From Bryocella elongata (GTDB taxonomy: Bacteria; Acidobacteriota; Terriglobia; Terriglobales; Acidobacteriaceae): a stretch of 64,000 nucleotides of DNA. The stretch lies in assembly GCF_900108185.1 (NCBI RefSeq), contig NZ_FNVA01000001.1:558001-622000 (forward strand), read 5' to 3'. Every line of letters starts with the position of its first letter. The first letter of the stretch is position 1. Below, in pieces: positions 36,235-41,916 of the stretch. The notes below the pieces were generated by a model, which was not told the DNA's origin, made no database searches, and saw only the letters and a program-made list of their open reading frames with translations. A program made the translations under genes and the position numbers.

Positions 36235-36995
36235 ACATCGAAGGCGCCAACGGATTCGAGGACGGAACCTTAGCGGTCGATGCGCGACCCGGTATCCGCG
36301 TGATCCTTGCGGACTCGCAGGCGATCTATCGCGTGGGCATGCGCAAGGTCTTCGCGCTGGAAGATGACATCCGCGTCGTGGCCCAGGCAGAGACGCTGGA
36401 GAACATGTTTGCTGCCCTGCAGCGTTATCCCACCGACGTTGTCGTGCTGGAGGGTGCGCTGATCATGGGCGTTCCTGACGCCCTGAATAACTTCCAGCGG
36501 CGCGCTCCGGAGGCGAAGTTTATCGTTCAGGTCGCCGAGAGCGACGAGAGCGGCACCGTGGAGTTGTACCGCAAGGGCGTGCGTGGCGTCGTGCCCCGCT
36601 CCATCTCCCCGGACCTGCTGATCAAGTGTGTGCGCAAGATCGCGGCTGGCGAGACGTGGATCGACAACCAGTCGATCGGCTGGGTCATTGAAGCCTACCG
36701 CGCGCAGGCTTCGGCTGCGACGGATCCCAACAAGGCTCCGCGGCTCTCCGAGAAGGAACTCGCCATCATTGCGTGCATCACACGCGGTATGCGCAACAAG
36801 GAGATCGCCTATCAGATCGGCACGACCGAGCAGGTGATCAAGAACTACCTGCGCAAGGTGTACGACAAGCTTGGCGTCAGTGATCGCCTGGAGCTTGCCC
36901 TCTATTGCCTGCACCACAAGATCCTTCAGAACGATCACGAAGAGATGCCGGTCCCGGCGATGGCCGGAAGCCAGCCGATGCGCGCCAAGTTCTAA
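36231..36995 (+). CDS. NarL/LuxR-family regulator with degenerate receiver domain
   Basis: A 254-residue protein with a receiver-like domain (about 21-140) and a C-terminal LuxR helix-turn-helix (about 185-245: 'LSEKELAIIACITRGMRNKEIAYQIGTTEQVIKNYLRKVYDKLGV'). The receiver lacks the standard phosphorylation chemistry. The acidic pair is Ala27-Asp28. The expected phospho-acceptor Asp at the end of beta-3 is Glu74 (TDVVVLEGAL). The conserved Lys before the last helix is Arg ('GVVPRSIS'). It is therefore probably independent of a histidine kinase, and the Glu may mimic the phosphorylated state. It is coupled to the PilZ gene, so c-di-GMP input is an attractive alternative. Confidence 0.88.
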   Translation: MNIEGANGFEDGTLAVDARPGIRVILADSQAIYRVGMRKVFALEDDIRVVAQAETLENMFAALQRYPTDVVVLEGALIMGVPDALNNFQRRAPEAKFIVQVAESDESGTVELYRKGVRGVVPRSISPDLLIKCVRKIAAGETWIDNQSIGWVIEAYRAQASAATDPNKAPRLSEKELAIIACITRGMRNKEIAYQIGTTEQVIKNYLRKVYDKLGVSDRLELALYCLHHKILQNDHEEMPVPAMAGSQPMRAKF

Positions 36996-37035
36996 AGGCT
37001 GTGCGCATCGTTCGCGCGGGAGCTTGCCTTTGGTC

Positions 37036-37063
37036 TTGCATGCCAGCGCTTCGAATGTAGACT
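37036..37063 (+). promoter_or_regulatory. Candidate promoter giving a near-leaderless MFS transcript
   Basis: TTGCAT (37036-37041), a 16-base spacer, then TAGACT (37058-37063). The predicted start is at or next to the TTG codon at 37070, and no Shine-Dalgarno sequence precedes that codon. The call rests on these weak matches only. Confidence 0.35.
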
Positions 37064-37069
37064 GTTGGC

Positions 37070-38413
37070 TTGAGCCTCCAGTCGAACTCTCCCACCGCTC
37101 CAGGTAGCCCTGCGCCGCGTCACTCGGTCTTTGCTCCGTTTCGCGCGCTCACGTCGATGCAGCGTCGCGTCTTCAGTGCCTGTTTCCTCGGCTGGACGCT
37201 GGATGCGCTCGACTTCTTCATCCTCACCTTCTGCCTCGACCAGATCGGCACCACCTTCCACATCGGTCTCGAGACTGTGGCAGAGAGCCTCTTCTGGACG
37301 CTGGCGATGCGTCCGGTCGGGGCCCTGCTCTTTGGTCTGCTCGCGGAGCGTATCGGCCGCAAACCGACGTTGATGATCAACGTGGCATGTTTCGCGATCT
37401 TCGAGTTGGCCAGCGCCTTCTCACCCACCTGGCCTATCTTCCTGGTCTGCCGCGCCCTGTTCGGCGTCGCTATGGGCGGCGAGTGGGGCGTGGGTGCAGC
37501 GCTGGCGCTGGAGTCTCTCCCCAAGGAGGGCCGCGGATTCTTCTCCGGCCTGCTGCAGGAAGGCTACGTGACCGGCAACATGCTGGCGGCCGCGCTCAGC
37601 GGCATCTTCGCCGTCGCGGTGGCGCACCTCGGGCTTACAGGCTTCGCGGCGGGCTGGCGCATGCTCTTCGTCATCGGCGCGTGCCTCACGCTGCTGGTCC
37701 TGGCGCTGCTGGCCACCGTGGACGAGTCCCCGGCATGGATTGCGGGTCGCGCCGCGAAGCTGGCTAAGCCTCCCGTCGCGCTTGGGCTGAAGCTGGCGAG
37801 CAACATCAGCCAGATGACCCGCTTCGCGCCGACCTTCCTGTTCCTCACGCTGATGATGTTTGCCTTCACCTCGTTCAGCCACGGCACACAGGATCTGTAT
37901 CCCAAGTTCCTGAAGCACGACTACCATCTGTCTGCGCCGGTGATCTCGCTGGTCGCCATGACCGGCAACCTTGGCGCGCTGCTGGGCGGTATGACCTGCG
38001 GCACATTGTCAGAGCGCATCGGCCGTCGCAAGACCATCATGTTTGCCGCGTTGCTGGCCATCCCGATGATTCCGCTCTGGGCGTTTTCGCACACCGCCGT
38101 GATGCTCGCCGCTGGCGGCTTCCTGATGCAGTTCATGGTGCAGGGCGCGTGGGGCGTGATCCCGGTGCACCTCAACGAGCTTTCGCCTGGGCCTGTGCGG
38201 GCGATTCTTCCCGGCGTGGCCTATCAGCTCGGCAACCTGCTCTCGTCGCGCAATGGCGTCTTCCAGTCCCGAGCGACGGAACATCTCTTCCACGGCCACA
38301 TGGCGCCGGCGCTGGGCTGGACGGTCCTGATCGTCGGTCTGCTGGTTGCCTTGATAACGTCTCTCGGCCCCGAGGCCAAGGGCGTGGACATGTCCAGTAA
38401 CGCAGCTGCCTAG
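37070..38413 (+). CDS. MFS transporter (metabolite:H+ symporter, sialate/lactate-type SHS family)
   Basis: A 447-residue permease with 12 predicted transmembrane helices. The MFS signature between TM2 and TM3 reads 'GLLAERIGRKPTLMI', repeated between TM8 and TM9 as 'GTLSERIGRRKTIMF'. 'LGWTLDALDFFILTF' in TM1 is typical of SHS/aromatic-acid/sialate permeases (NanT, Jen1 and PcaK relatives), which import organic acids with protons. TTG 37070 is the annotated start; the first 30 residues are polar, and the ATG at 37157 is an alternative. The reductase operon begins 92 bases after its stop, but with its own promoter and attenuator, so co-function is not implied. Confidence 0.85.
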   Translation: MSLQSNSPTAPGSPAPRHSVFAPFRALTSMQRRVFSACFLGWTLDALDFFILTFCLDQIGTTFHIGLETVAESLFWTLAMRPVGALLFGLLAERIGRKPTLMINVACFAIFELASAFSPTWPIFLVCRALFGVAMGGEWGVGAALALESLPKEGRGFFSGLLQEGYVTGNMLAAALSGIFAVAVAHLGLTGFAAGWRMLFVIGACLTLLVLALLATVDESPAWIAGRAAKLAKPPVALGLKLASNISQMTRFAPTFLFLTLMMFAFTSFSHGTQDLYPKFLKHDYHLSAPVISLVAMTGNLGALLGGMTCGTLSERIGRRKTIMFAALLAIPMIPLWAFSHTAVMLAAGGFLMQFMVQGAWGVIPVHLNELSPGPVRAILPGVAYQLGNLLSSRNGVFQSRATEHLFHGHMAPALGWTVLIVGLLVALITSLGPEAKGVDMSSNAAA

Positions 38414-38470
38414 TTGTTGCGGTGCACGCGGCACGTCTTCAATCCGGTCTGTAATCCGGGACGCGCCGCG

Positions 38471-38499
38471 TTGCCATATCAGGCGAATCCCTTTACCCT
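38471..38499 (+). promoter_or_regulatory. Promoter of the attenuated reductase operon (predicted leaderless start)
   Basis: TTGCCA (38471-38476), a 17-base spacer, then TACCCT (38494-38499). Seven bases downstream of the -10 is 38506, the A of the leader-peptide ATG. The -35 is strong (5 of 6 to consensus) and the -10 weak (3 of 6). Confidence 0.5.
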
Positions 38500-38505
38500 T
38501 GTTGC

Positions 38506-38577
38506 ATGCGAGCTTTCCGCACAACGGTCTGTTGTCCCAGCGCTGGCGCCTCTGCGTCGGCTGCGGCACGCTGGTAG
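38506..38577 (+). CDS. Putative 23-residue cysteine leader peptide, leaderless
   Basis: ATG at 38506 to TAG at 38575-38577. Codons 9 and 10 are tandem TGT TGT (Cys-Cys), and Arg, Ser and Ala dominate the remainder. No Shine-Dalgarno sequence precedes it, and the predicted transcript starts at the ATG itself. It lies 25 bases upstream of an intrinsic terminator and 101 bases upstream of a siroheme-dependent sulfite/nitrite reductase. The arrangement matches ribosome-mediated attenuation: when charged Cys-tRNA is scarce, a ribosome stalls at the Cys pair. Potential pairing partners are CGGTC (38525-38529, just before the Cys codons) with GACCG (38598-38602), and CCAGCG (38537-38542) with CGCTGG (38569-38574). 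The pairing logic is inferred, and the peptide itself may have no other role. Confidence 0.5.
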   Translation: MRAFRTTVCCPSAGASASAAARW

Positions 38578-38602
38578 CGCGCGCATAGCCTGGCACGGAC
38601 CG

Positions 38603-38633
38603 CCCACGATTGCGACTGCAACGTGGGTTTTTT
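38603..38633 (+). terminator. Intrinsic terminator in the reductase leader (attenuator)
   Basis: Stem CCCACG-(A)-TTGC / GCAA-CGTGGG with loop GACT and one bulged A, followed by TTTTTT (38628-38633). It lies upstream of the reductase start codon (38679), not after a gene, so unregulated it would abort the operon. Confidence 0.75.
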
Positions 38634-38678
38634 GCTTTCCGCCCTCAACTCAACCCCCAACCCGGAGAAGATAGTTTC

Positions 38679-40406
38679 GTGAGCGACGCCACCCAACCCA
38701 CCGTTCCTGCTGTGAAGGAGACCAAGGCCCAGAAGTCCGAGCGTCTCAAGCTCGAGAAGAACCCCTGGGACAACTGGGACGAGGTGCGCAAGTTCGCCGA
38801 GGAGGGCCGTACGAGTGTGCTGCCAAGCTGGGCAGGTCTCTACTTCAAGTGGTGGGGCGTTTACACGCAGGGCGATGGCCTGGGCGTGACCGGCGGCAAG
38901 GACGGCGAAGGCAAGGTTTCCGACTACTTCATGATGCGCATCGCCGTTCCCAACGGCCAGCTGACGAGCGCGCAGACCCACACGATTGCCGACCTGACGG
39001 CGAAGTACGCCAACAACCTCGCCGACATCACCACGCGGCAGTGCATCCAGCTCCATTGGCTCACCATCGCGGGCCTTGTCGAGGTCATCGACGCGCTGCA
39101 GAAGGTAGGCCTCACGCCCAAGGGTGCCTGTGGCGACGTCGTCCGCAACGTGACTGGCTGCCCACTCGCGGGGCTCGACTCCCATCAGCTGCTGGATGCT
39201 TCGCCCCTCGCGCATGAGATCGCCGAGACGCTGATGGGCAACGGCGAGTTCTACAACCTGCCACGCAAGTTCAAGATCACCGTGACTGGCTGCCCGGTGT
39301 GGTGCAGCTATCCCGAGATCAACGACGTTGGCCTGACCGCCGTGAAGCGGACGAACTCCGATGGCGGAGAGGAGATCGGCTACTCGCTGCGCGTCGGCGG
39401 AGGCCTTTCCAGCGAGCCGCACATTGCGGTCCGGCTGGATGCCTTCATCCCGCAGGACAAGGCCTTCGATGTGGTGCGCACGATCTGCGAGATCTTCAAG
39501 GATCAAACCGCGCTGCGCGAGAGCCGCACCCGCGCCCGCATCAAGTACCTCTTCATGAAGCATGGCTGGACCGCTGAGTCCATGCTCGCAGCCATCGAAG
39601 AGCGCCTCGGCTACAAGTTCGAGCCGCATCCGGAAGGGCCGGTCTCGGGCGACCAGTTCCGCGACCACATGGGCGTCTCGCCACAGCTTCAGGCTGGCCT
39701 CAGCGCTCTTGGCGTCACCGTCATCAACGGCCGCTTGAACCCCACGCAGCTGCATGGCGTGGCGGACCTGGCGAGCGAGTACGGCTCGGGCCACGTGCGC
39801 ACCACCATCGGCCAGAACCTGCTCATCGTCAACGTACCCAACGCAAAGGTCGCAGAGCTCGCGGAGAAAGTTACCGCGCTCGGCCTTTCGGTTGAGCCGA
39901 CCGTGTTCTTCCGTGGCGCTGTGGCCTGCACCGGCACCGAGTTCTGCAAGCTCGCCATCTCGGAGACCAAGGCCTTCAATAAGTGGCTCGTCGGCGAACT
40001 TGAAGAGCGGCTGCCGCAGTTCGATCAGCAGCTGCGCATGCACGTTACGGGCTGCACCAACTCCTGCGGCCAGTCGTGGATCGCTGACCTCGGCCTCGAA
40101 GGCAAGAAGATCAAGAAGGACGGCAAGCTGGTCGACGCCTTCTACTTCTGCGTGGGCGGCGCGGTGGGATCGGAATACGCGGGCATCGCGCGACAGATCG
40201 GCTTCCGTGCGGCTGCGGAGGATTGCCCGGATGCCATCGAGCGCCTGTTGCGAGGCTACCTCGCGCAGCGCACGCCCGAGGAATCGCTGCGGTCGTTCTT
40301 CCGCCGCACCAGCGATGAAGACCTGCGCACACTGCTGAACGGTGTGACCACCGAGGCTGTCGAGCGCGATCCTGCGCCCGGCCACGTGCCCGCGAACGTA
40401 AGCTAG
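38679..40406 (+). CDS. Ferredoxin-dependent sulfite/nitrite reductase (siroheme, 4Fe-4S)
   Basis: A 575-residue assimilatory reductase from GTG 38679, with GGAG about 10 bases upstream. Two ferredoxin-like/siroheme half-domain repeats are visible. The siroheme-[4Fe-4S] ligands are Cys417-x5-Cys423 (ACTGTEFCK) and Cys459-x3-Cys463 (GCTNSCGQS). It reduces sulfite to sulfide or nitrite to ammonia with six electrons, and the family does not separate the two by eye. The Cys-codon leader and downstream siroheme genes favour sulfite and cysteine synthesis; genes for nitrate transport are absent. It is followed 23 bases later by the precorrin-2 dehydrogenase gene. Confidence 0.9.
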   Translation: MSDATQPTVPAVKETKAQKSERLKLEKNPWDNWDEVRKFAEEGRTSVLPSWAGLYFKWWGVYTQGDGLGVTGGKDGEGKVSDYFMMRIAVPNGQLTSAQTHTIADLTAKYANNLADITTRQCIQLHWLTIAGLVEVIDALQKVGLTPKGACGDVVRNVTGCPLAGLDSHQLLDASPLAHEIAETLMGNGEFYNLPRKFKITVTGCPVWCSYPEINDVGLTAVKRTNSDGGEEIGYSLRVGGGLSSEPHIAVRLDAFIPQDKAFDVVRTICEIFKDQTALRESRTRARIKYLFMKHGWTAESMLAAIEERLGYKFEPHPEGPVSGDQFRDHMGVSPQLQAGLSALGVTVINGRLNPTQLHGVADLASEYGSGHVRTTIGQNLLIVNVPNAKVAELAEKVTALGLSVEPTVFFRGAVACTGTEFCKLAISETKAFNKWLVGELEERLPQFDQQLRMHVTGCTNSCGQSWIADLGLEGKKIKKDGKLVDAFYFCVGGAVGSEYAGIARQIGFRAAAEDCPDAIERLLRGYLAQRTPEESLRSFFRRTSDEDLRTLLNGVTTEAVERDPAPGHVPANVS

Positions 40407-40429: not shown

Positions 40430-41086
40430 ATGAGCCTGTTTCCCATGTTCCTCAAGCTCGCAGCGCGGCCCTGCGTCGTCGTTGGCGCGGGCACTATCGC
40501 CGAGTCGAAGATCGAGAGCCTGCTCAACGCAGAGGCCAGAGTGACGGTGATCTCGCCCGAGGCTTTGCCGCGCGTGCAGGCCTGGGCCGAAGGCGGAGAC
40601 ATCACATGGCTGCAGCGTGAGTATGCTGACGGCGATCTTGCCGGGATGTTCCTCGCGGTGGCTGCCACGGAGATCGCGGCGGTGAATCGTGCCGTCTATG
40701 CGGAAGCCACCTCGCGCAACATCCTTTGCAATGCAGTCGACGACCCACCCTTTTGCGACTTCTACTTTCCCTCCATCGTTCAACGTGGTGAGCTACAGAT
40801 CGCCATCTCGACCGCCGGCGAAAGCCCCGCGCTGGCGCAGCGGTTGCGCAAGGAGCTCAACGCGGCTTTACCGCTTGATCTTGGCGAATGGCTGATGGAG
40901 CTCGGCCGTCTGCGCCGCGAAGTTGTGGCTGTCGAGCCGCTAGGCGATCCGCGCCGCAAGCTGCTGCATGAGCTCGCGCAGCGCGAGGTCTGCGGCTACG
41001 ATCAGTGCCCTTCAAGGCTTCGCGCCCGCGAGCATGCGGTGGAGATGGGGTACGTTCCAGCTGAGTCTTCGGCGTCGAAGCCATAA
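40430..41086 (+). CDS. Precorrin-2 dehydrogenase / sirohydrochlorin ferrochelatase
   Basis: A 218-residue Met8/SirC/CysG-N-like protein. The Rossmann loop reads 'CVVVGAGTIAESKIESLLN' at about 15-33. 'VDDPPFCDFYFPSIVQRGELQIAISTAGESPALAQRLRKEL' at about 104-144 is the diagnostic segment. It oxidises precorrin-2 to sirohydrochlorin with NAD and can insert Fe2+ to give siroheme. It sits in the reductase operon between the siroheme user and the methyltransferase, which together supply the cofactor. The C-terminal tail (about 150-218) is helical and lacks a fused methyltransferase. Confidence 0.92.
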   Translation: MSLFPMFLKLAARPCVVVGAGTIAESKIESLLNAEARVTVISPEALPRVQAWAEGGDITWLQREYADGDLAGMFLAVAATEIAAVNRAVYAEATSRNILCNAVDDPPFCDFYFPSIVQRGELQIAISTAGESPALAQRLRKELNAALPLDLGEWLMELGRLRREVVAVEPLGDPRRKLLHELAQREVCGYDQCPSRLRAREHAVEMGYVPAESSASKP

Positions 41087-41097
41087 CGTCAACGCCT

Positions 41098-41916
41098 ATG
41101 CCAACGCATTCCACGCAGACCGCAGCAACACCCGGCAACGTCTATCTTGTAGGCGCGGGCCCAGGAGCGCCGGATCTGCTGACCGTGCGCGCTCTGCGTT
41201 TGCTGGAGTCTTGCGACCTGGTTCTGCATGACGACCTCGTGCCCGACGAGGTGCTCGCGCTCGCTGGCCCGCAGGCCGAGATCGTCAGCGTGGGTAAGCG
41301 CTGCGGCAAGCCGCGCATCACGCAGCAGGGAATTCATGAGCTGATGATCGAAGGCGCGCGAGCGAACCGGAGCGTCGTCCGTCTCAAGTCAGGCGATCCA
41401 CTGGTCTTTGGCCGCGCCGGAGAAGAGCTCGCTGCACTACGCGAGGCCAGCGTACCGTTTGAGATAGTCCCTGGAGTGACGGCTGCCTTTGCTGCAGGCG
41501 CTGCGCTGGGCCTGCCACTGACCGATCGCACGAGCGCGTCGAAGCTGATCTTCGCCACCGGCCATCATGCGTCGAGCAAAGATCCTGCGCCGGTCTTCGA
41601 GGGCGCGATCCCACAGGATGCCACGCTCATCCTCTACATGCCGGGCCGCGATATGGAGCGGCTCGCTCAGGAGCTGCGCGATGGTGGTCTGCCGCCAGAC
41701 ACGCCGTGTTGCGCGATCTCGCATGCAGCCACGCCGGAGCAGAACTACGTGAGCTGCAGGCTCCACGAACTCGAGCATCTCACTCCTGGCACAGCGCCCG
41801 TGTTGCTGCTCGTGGGGCGCGCGATGGAGCCCATGATTGCTGGCCCTGGTAACTCGCTTGAAGCCGACGCCCTGCTCGATGAAGTGATCGACCGCGCAGC
41901 CACGATGCTGGAGTAG
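41098..41916 (+). CDS. cobA: Uroporphyrinogen-III C-methyltransferase
   Basis: A 272-residue SAM-dependent methyltransferase making precorrin-2 from uroporphyrinogen III. Motifs 'GNVYLVGAGPGAPDLLTVRALRLL', 'DLVLHDDLVP', 'VRLKSGDPLVFGRAGEELAAL' and 'VVPGVTAAFA'-like 'IVPGVTAAFAAGAALGLPLT' are typical of SUMT. It is the third gene of the reductase-siroheme operon, starting 11 bases after the previous stop. It ends 5 bases before the convergent GH25 gene, with no terminator between. Confidence 0.95.
   Translation: MPTHSTQTAATPGNVYLVGAGPGAPDLLTVRALRLLESCDLVLHDDLVPDEVLALAGPQAEIVSVGKRCGKPRITQQGIHELMIEGARANRSVVRLKSGDPLVFGRAGEELAALREASVPFEIVPGVTAAFAAGAALGLPLTDRTSASKLIFATGHHASSKDPAPVFEGAIPQDATLILYMPGRDMERLAQELRDGGLPPDTPCCAISHAATPEQNYVSCRLHELEHLTPGTAPVLLLVGRAMEPMIAGPGNSLEADALLDEVIDRAATMLE

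Follow-up and report, generated by a model that had tools for sequence, protein, structure and literature searches.

A conserved cysteine-codon leader with an intrinsic terminator precedes a probable sulfite reductase operon in Bryocella elongata and related acidobacteria

The original paper on the leaderless polycysteine short ORFs of mycobacteria is reportedly that of Canestrari and colleagues in 2020. The accessible parts of other papers cite these ORFs as acting on translation (PMC9031893, PMC13236596) and as regulatory (PMC9094748), and candidate Cys leader peptides are placed upstream of the cys operons of Actinobacteria in the accessible part of a further study (PMC1262725). Streptomyces lividans has in LeuL2 a leaderless Leu attenuator with a terminator, according to the portion of text at hand (PMC8079986). 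For acidobacteria, leaderless genes were predicted earlier (extracts of PMC3160421), and in the consulted extracts of an attenuator survey the acidobacterial predictions are almost without assigned function (PMC2965389). A search of the literature on acidobacterial attenuation and leaders and on cysteine leaders, in which subscription papers were scarcely covered, retrieved nothing closer to the locus described here.

As far as those extracts go, the present leaders share with the mycobacterial ORFs their runs of Cys codons, a probably leaderless start, a position before sulfur or cysteine genes and an occurrence at several loci per genome. They differ in belonging to another phylum, in being followed by an intrinsic terminator and, in most of the family, in a predicted pairing between the leader ORF (uORF) and that terminator, whereas the mycobacterial case is translational by description and reported, in the same extracts, without terminators. 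The Actinobacteria leaders are likewise Cys-rich ORFs before cys operons, but in the part of that study available to us they are without conserved terminator hairpins, Rho being one possibility, whereas a terminator stands at 110/121 of the reductase (sir) loci considered here. The classical trp/leu-type attenuators, LeuL2 included, also combine a leader peptide containing regulatory codons with an intrinsic terminator, and LeuL2 is likewise transcribed leaderless (PMC8079986, accessible text); here, in contrast, cysteine would be the amino acid sensed, and the predicted antiterminator strand is part of the leader ORF itself, immediately past the regulatory codons. On sequence comparison, the cysteine leader and its terminator are real and conserved; the logic is known, the build is terminator-based, and the literature search above retrieved no report of it in this lineage.

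The window (the whole stretch analysed, 64,000 nucleotides of Bryocella elongata) contains the following features.

38471–38476, + strand: −35 element TTGCCA, read from the sequence; a TTG-type −35 recurs in the strict test of relatives given below
38494–38499, + strand: −10 element TACCCT, after a 17-nt spacer and 6 nt before the ATG
38506–38577, + strand: leader uORF MRAFRTTVCCPSAGASASAAARW (23 codons and a stop), with a probably leaderless start at the ATG (38506) and a TAG ending at 38577
38530–38535, + strand: regulatory codons TGT TGT, uORF codons 9–10, found in 14/14 chosen window-clade leaders
38525–38532, + strand: segment CGGUCUGU, partner of 38595–38602 in the predicted leader fold
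38595–38602, + strand: segment ACGGACCG, directly 5' of the terminator, partner of 38525–38532 in the predicted fold
38603–38633, + strand: intrinsic terminator read from the sequence, a hairpin (38603–38627; stem as scored −16.0 kcal/mol) plus a T run (38628–38633)
38679–40406, + strand: siroheme reductase, most likely a ferredoxin-type sulfite reductase (NIR_SIR domains, relative of 1zj8, active-site residues)
40430–41086, + strand: siroheme synthase N-terminal type, precorrin-2 dehydrogenase (TIGR01470, 165.3 bits, cut-off 62.3)
41098–41916, + strand: uroporphyrinogen-III C-methyltransferase (NF004790, 267.9 bits, cut-off 198)
37070–38413, + strand: transporter gene upstream of the leader, on the same strand, with the hairpin 190 nt 3' of the gene

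The original prediction, made from the letters of this DNA, had described a TTGCCA-17-TACCCT promoter, an ATG at 38506, tandem TGT codons, a hairpin with a T run and a reductase GTG at 38679, and all of these are located exactly where it put them. The hairpin (CCCACG-A-TTGC-GACT-GCAA-CGTGGG) starts 25 nt past the uORF stop and is followed by TTTTTT. The uORF also lacks a Shine-Dalgarno sequence, as had been proposed, since the −10 element occupies the place 5' of the ATG and leaves no room for one. In a ribosome-free RNA, CGGUCUGU could pair with ACGGACCG, with an uncertain role. Taken as a single sequence, the leader offers modest evidence, because a consensus scanner reported neither its promoter (8/12 matches here) nor its terminator (where an A bulges from the stem), its RNA folds no better than shuffles (z −1.19), and the Rfam 15 covariance models, riboswitches and T-boxes included, gave three sub-threshold matches over 36900–39000 and none in the leader. 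A riboswitch, for which this absence of an Rfam 15 match in the leader was considered, was judged unlikely. On the minus strand, a 630-codon open frame (38493–40385) runs antisense to the reductase and is most likely a shadow frame of high-GC DNA.

Very probably, the sulfite reductase/siroheme operon is controlled by a cysteine-responsive, ribosome-mediated transcription attenuator. Transcription would start at or beside the A of the ATG (38506), and ribosomes would load on the leaderless 5' end, as the spacing suggests. With sufficient Cys-tRNA, the ribosome would pass the TGT codons, reach the stop and cover the end of the uORF, so that the hairpin and U run could form and RNA polymerase would stop. 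When Cys-tRNA is short, the ribosome would stall on the Cys codons and the uORF stretch downstream would stay free, to pair with the 5' arm of the terminator; the terminator would then be blocked and the operon transcribed. Stalling, the cysteine signal and whatever antiterminator the window uses are steps that we infer.

Relatives of the reductase were retrieved from 98/150 genomes of the family at E 1e-50 (G020, G029 and G126 via a distant paralog only), and named genomes contributed 38 loci, 25 close and 13 distant. We examined 121 loci (L002–L056 and L070–L135, L001 being a repeat of the window), with 13 distant homologs (L057–L069) and more distant copies (L136–L139) kept outside this set. 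A Cys leader ORF and an intrinsic terminator were found in 110/121, in a shared layout of promoter, start codon 6–15 nt on, ORF of 16–35 codons with Cys codons, and terminator 18–65 nt 3' of the leader stop. One locus duplicates another (L050 and L008), leaving 109 distinct leaders, and further loci may belong to the same species. Curation by hand added eight leaders, re-chose six starts, dropped a spurious leader at L079 and included a renewed search for the terminators of L037, L046 and L047; in three of the 109 leaders (L015, L076, L080) the Cys codons are close, not adjacent. Against the attenuator we count the 11/121 loci without a leader or terminator at the expected place: L025 has a leader with no terminator found, and ten have no leader there (L011, L012, L016, L024, L054, L079, L091, L096, L123, L133). 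In two genomes among these (G108, L091; G062, L016) a leader lies farther upstream, heading a longer operon (seen in L173 and L174).

The leader recurs in eight further loci of the window's genus (seven flagged by script, L154 by eye) and in 7/7 loci of another genus of the same family, several of these loci repeating species already counted; three further loci (L178–L180) have it and L181 has none. In a sister family, f2, reductase matches came from 10 genomes, and nine loci were inspected for ORFs and promoters. L169 is truncated where its contig stops; the other eight all have an ORF with a Cys doublet (CC) upstream, six of them with a promoter score of at least 8.5. Promoter-linked Cys leaders were absent before the 13 distant homologs, to which leader inspection beyond the order was confined (L069 having 123 nt of upstream sequence), and before the distant copy L136 and the NirA-like paralogs L137–L139. 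At E 1e-100, a search of the phylum gave five matches outside the order (G237, G276, G287, G426, G461). Comparison of relatives thus brings out the Cys codons, the promoter spacing and the terminator, joined across most of the family by the putative antiterminator pairing. The interpretation is well supported for the lineage, and support is poorer for the precise RNA pairing proposed in the window.

The arrangement is rare by chance. In a strict test (TTG −35, 16–18 nt, −10, 5–12 nt, start codon, 10–40 codons with CC), 90/118 upstream regions passed, two having been dropped for short sequence, compared with 0/118 reverse complements, 4/2360 dinucleotide shuffles and 0/944 coding stretches. Across 894,502 bases of the window's own genome, both strands included, 104 short ORFs follow a promoter-like site; six have a Cys doublet, three of these with a terminator within 75 nt (the window's among them), versus at most one ORF for each other doubled residue, in a sample of which one part, contig C9, was chosen for two such leaders already known there. 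The gap between the −10 element and the start codon is 6 or 7 nt in 57/94 leaders with a TTG −35 and 8–15 nt in the rest, which puts the start codon on the predicted first base of the transcript or within a few bases 3' of it; the leader uORF is probably leaderless, judging from this spacing.

Sequence similarity leaves the name of the enzyme ambiguous, since the window reductase scores below the cut-off of every listed NCBIfam model, the nearest being the NirA and ferredoxin-nitrite reductase models. These nearest models would suit a nitrite reductase, before which a Cys leader would have to mean something else. Among proteins of solved structure, the best relative of the window reductase is M. 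tuberculosis NirA (1zj8), a sulfite reductase in which Tyr69 and Cys161 are bonded. The Tyr in GVYTQ and the Cys in KGACGD of the window protein align with this Tyr69/Cys161 pair, whereas a NirA-like paralog in the same genome (L137), above the NF007126 cut-off, has Phe and Ser or Gly at these sites. In a relative (G062), moreover, cysD, cysN, cysH, the reductase and cysG follow each other on one strand, with a single Cys leader heading the run, so that the reductase sits between cysH and cysG. The paralog (also L207; C5:212721–214166 of the own genome) is without a Cys leader, and beside it lie a CysJ-like flavoprotein and a uroporphyrinogen-III-synthase-like protein. Since a CysJ-like flavoprotein adjoins the NirA-like paralog, the genome may hold a second sulfite reductase system, a point in favour of the nitrite reading, which we nevertheless consider improbable. 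The window enzyme is most likely a sulfite reductase, and the earlier argument that a Cys sensor implies sulfite rather than nitrite as substrate now has the backing of gene context and of two active-site residues.

An equally improbable reading is translational attenuation as in mycobacteria, in which stalling would open a downstream ribosome-binding site and the hairpin would be incidental. It draws on the translational description of the mycobacterial polycysteine ORFs in the accessible text of two papers (PMC9031893, PMC13236596) and on the cysD loci of the present lineage. CysD-type loci were collected through PF01507 in 12 genomes, 11 (L182–L192) being taken as CysD by score and L193 not, and in 10/11 genomes, the window's own included and G032 being the miss, an ORF that contains CC and three or more Cys lies upstream, a raw count with no shuffle control. 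An intrinsic terminator is near only 3/10 of these cysD leaders. Among the plus-strand loci, promoter scores are good at L187, L188 and L191, and two ORFs farther upstream that also have CC and at least three Cys (L182:954, L186:934) look like chance. The own-genome cysD leader, MNLLSTLGVRCCASGACCLSGCCCEL (L191:1169, contig C6), lies before cysD-cysN-cysH behind TTGCCC-17-TACAAT; no intrinsic terminator was found near it, and a model of ribosome-binding-site release applied to it showed nothing, which goes against translational control. At the reductase loci, the same reading has to face the intrinsic terminator that follows the uORF in 110/121, the covariation of its stem and, across most of the family, the pairing of its 5' arm with the uORF.

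The covariation was seen in the most distant clade (34 leaders), where the terminator has 13 two-sided changes in five pairs and 0/500 shuffles scored as high, either on the two-sided-change count or on the covariation score. In the same clade, CUGGCG..GGG of the uORF has its pairing partner in the terminator arm, CCC..CGCCAG; 88.2% of the cells of this antiterminator helix are paired, versus 26–49% when it is slid, and its covariation is modest (16/500 shuffles as high). Three leaders (L119, L130, L134; alignment A1) carry the CAG in the terminator loop instead of the stem and still match CUGG of the uORF, which is evidence for the antiterminator separate from that for the terminator. More generally, the family pattern is that uORF sequence 3' of the Cys codons pairs with the terminator 5' arm. 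Cognate uORF and arm pairs are stronger than swapped ones across the 109 leaders (z −10.5, in a permutation that ignores the relatedness of the leaders), with z −7.6 for the middle 45 by identity and z −4.7 for the lowest 39, and weakly so for the 25 nearest the window (p = 0.075). In a duplex test between uORF and terminator arm, 35/109 leaders were among the top five of 100, and the window ranked 80 of 100 against shuffles. Modelled sequestration of the arm averaged 0.54 with a stalled ribosome, compared with 0.21 for a ribosome on the stop codon and 0.43 for shuffles, and in 102/109 leaders the stalled value exceeded the one at the stop; for the 25 nearest leaders the stalled value was not above shuffles (0.31 versus 0.35), and in the window the values ran in the wrong direction (0.17 stalled, 0.27 at the stop, 0.32 in shuffles).

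In several near relatives, short helices such as GGCAC:GUGCC, GGCGC:GCGCC and CUCAGGG:CCCUGAG may link the uORF with the terminator base in single folds, which is suggestive only, and the alignment of 14 window-clade leaders (A2) is too gappy between uORF and terminator for counting covariation. Two alternative helices had been put forward for the window itself, and their strands can indeed base-pair: CGGUC (38525–38529) with GACCG (38598–38602), and CCAGCG (38537–38542) with CGCUGG (38569–38574). Comparison with relatives gave neither of these exact helices support. The duplex test, single folds and the sequestration model gave no clear version of the family-type pairing in the window. These sequence tests support an antiterminator freed by stalling in the two thirds of the family that lie farther from the window, and gave no clear one in the window or its nearest relatives. 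At the level of the family, the mechanism is thus well supported.

That the Cys codons, rather than the residues, are what is kept is suggested by their usage. TGT TGT stands at the Cys doublet in 14/14 aligned window-clade leaders, in which no other codon position is constant, and also in the four leaders left out of this alignment (L005, L039, L044, L154); with all 109 leaders considered, the first doublet is TGT TGT in 72/106. TGT accounts for 382/558 of the Cys codons in leaders versus 101/1073 in the reductase ORFs. The loss of Cys codons from homologous leaders, which had been named in advance as grounds for giving up the idea, was looked for and not seen, as they are kept while the other codons vary. 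The preference for TGT together with the variation of other codons is what one would expect if selection acted on the codon and not on the peptide. Some leaders encode up to 10 Cys residues, so one might suppose that the Cys-rich peptide is itself the product, for instance a metal- or thiol-binding one, with no sensor involved; we hold this to be very improbable, as the non-Cys residues vary, lengths range from 16 to 35, TGT is strongly preferred and, in one clade, the conserved 3' end of the uORF coincides with RNA pairing. Weakest of all, the notion that the hairpin merely terminates the same-strand transporter gene (37070–38413), whose end lies 190 nt 5' of it, and that the ORF is a chance one, is hardly credible, since leader and terminator recur at fixed spacing where the upstream sequences differ, and shuffles and coding DNA almost never pass the strict test.

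The window's own genome has runs of Cys codons before more than one sulfur locus (sir and cysD). A wider proposal, which we regard as evenly balanced, is that in the order to which the Acidobacteriaceae belong sulfur assimilation is governed through independent leaderless poly-Cys leaders. These would form a cysteine 'ribulon' separate in origin or retention from the mycobacterial one: sir would be under transcription attenuation, most cysD operons under some other mechanism, and additional members would precede genes whose function is unknown (a DUF6152/DUF6644 cluster, a secreted protein, a CxxCH protein).

These leaders would give a large phylum of soil bacteria, whose predicted attenuators had almost no assigned function in the consulted extracts of the survey (PMC2965389), a system of cysteine control that can be tested. 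They would also extend Cys-sensing, probably leaderless ORFs beyond actinobacteria and link such ORFs with a terminator switch. The ambiguously annotated reductase gains a probable sulfite reductase label, and the leaders may be usable as tags for other cysteine-regulated genes of unknown function.

A scan of the own genome for the promoter pattern gave seven places, three of which, on contig C9, begin short Cys-rich ORFs. A promoter of this type also stands at C10:153227 (L145), before an apparently leaderless gene that looks sulfatase-like by eye and has no Cys leader. At C9:36020 (L142, L213), the leader ORF MARNSNMLCCPSHIAVGGCGFVSYCS and a terminator precede a gene for a CxxCH protein with no Pfam match. 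Two divergent Cys-rich ORFs of leaderless type, at C9:44625 (−) and C9:44705 (+) (L143, L144, L214), precede a secreted protein that matches no Pfam family and the DUF6152/DUF6644 cluster, with a terminator on the plus-strand one only.
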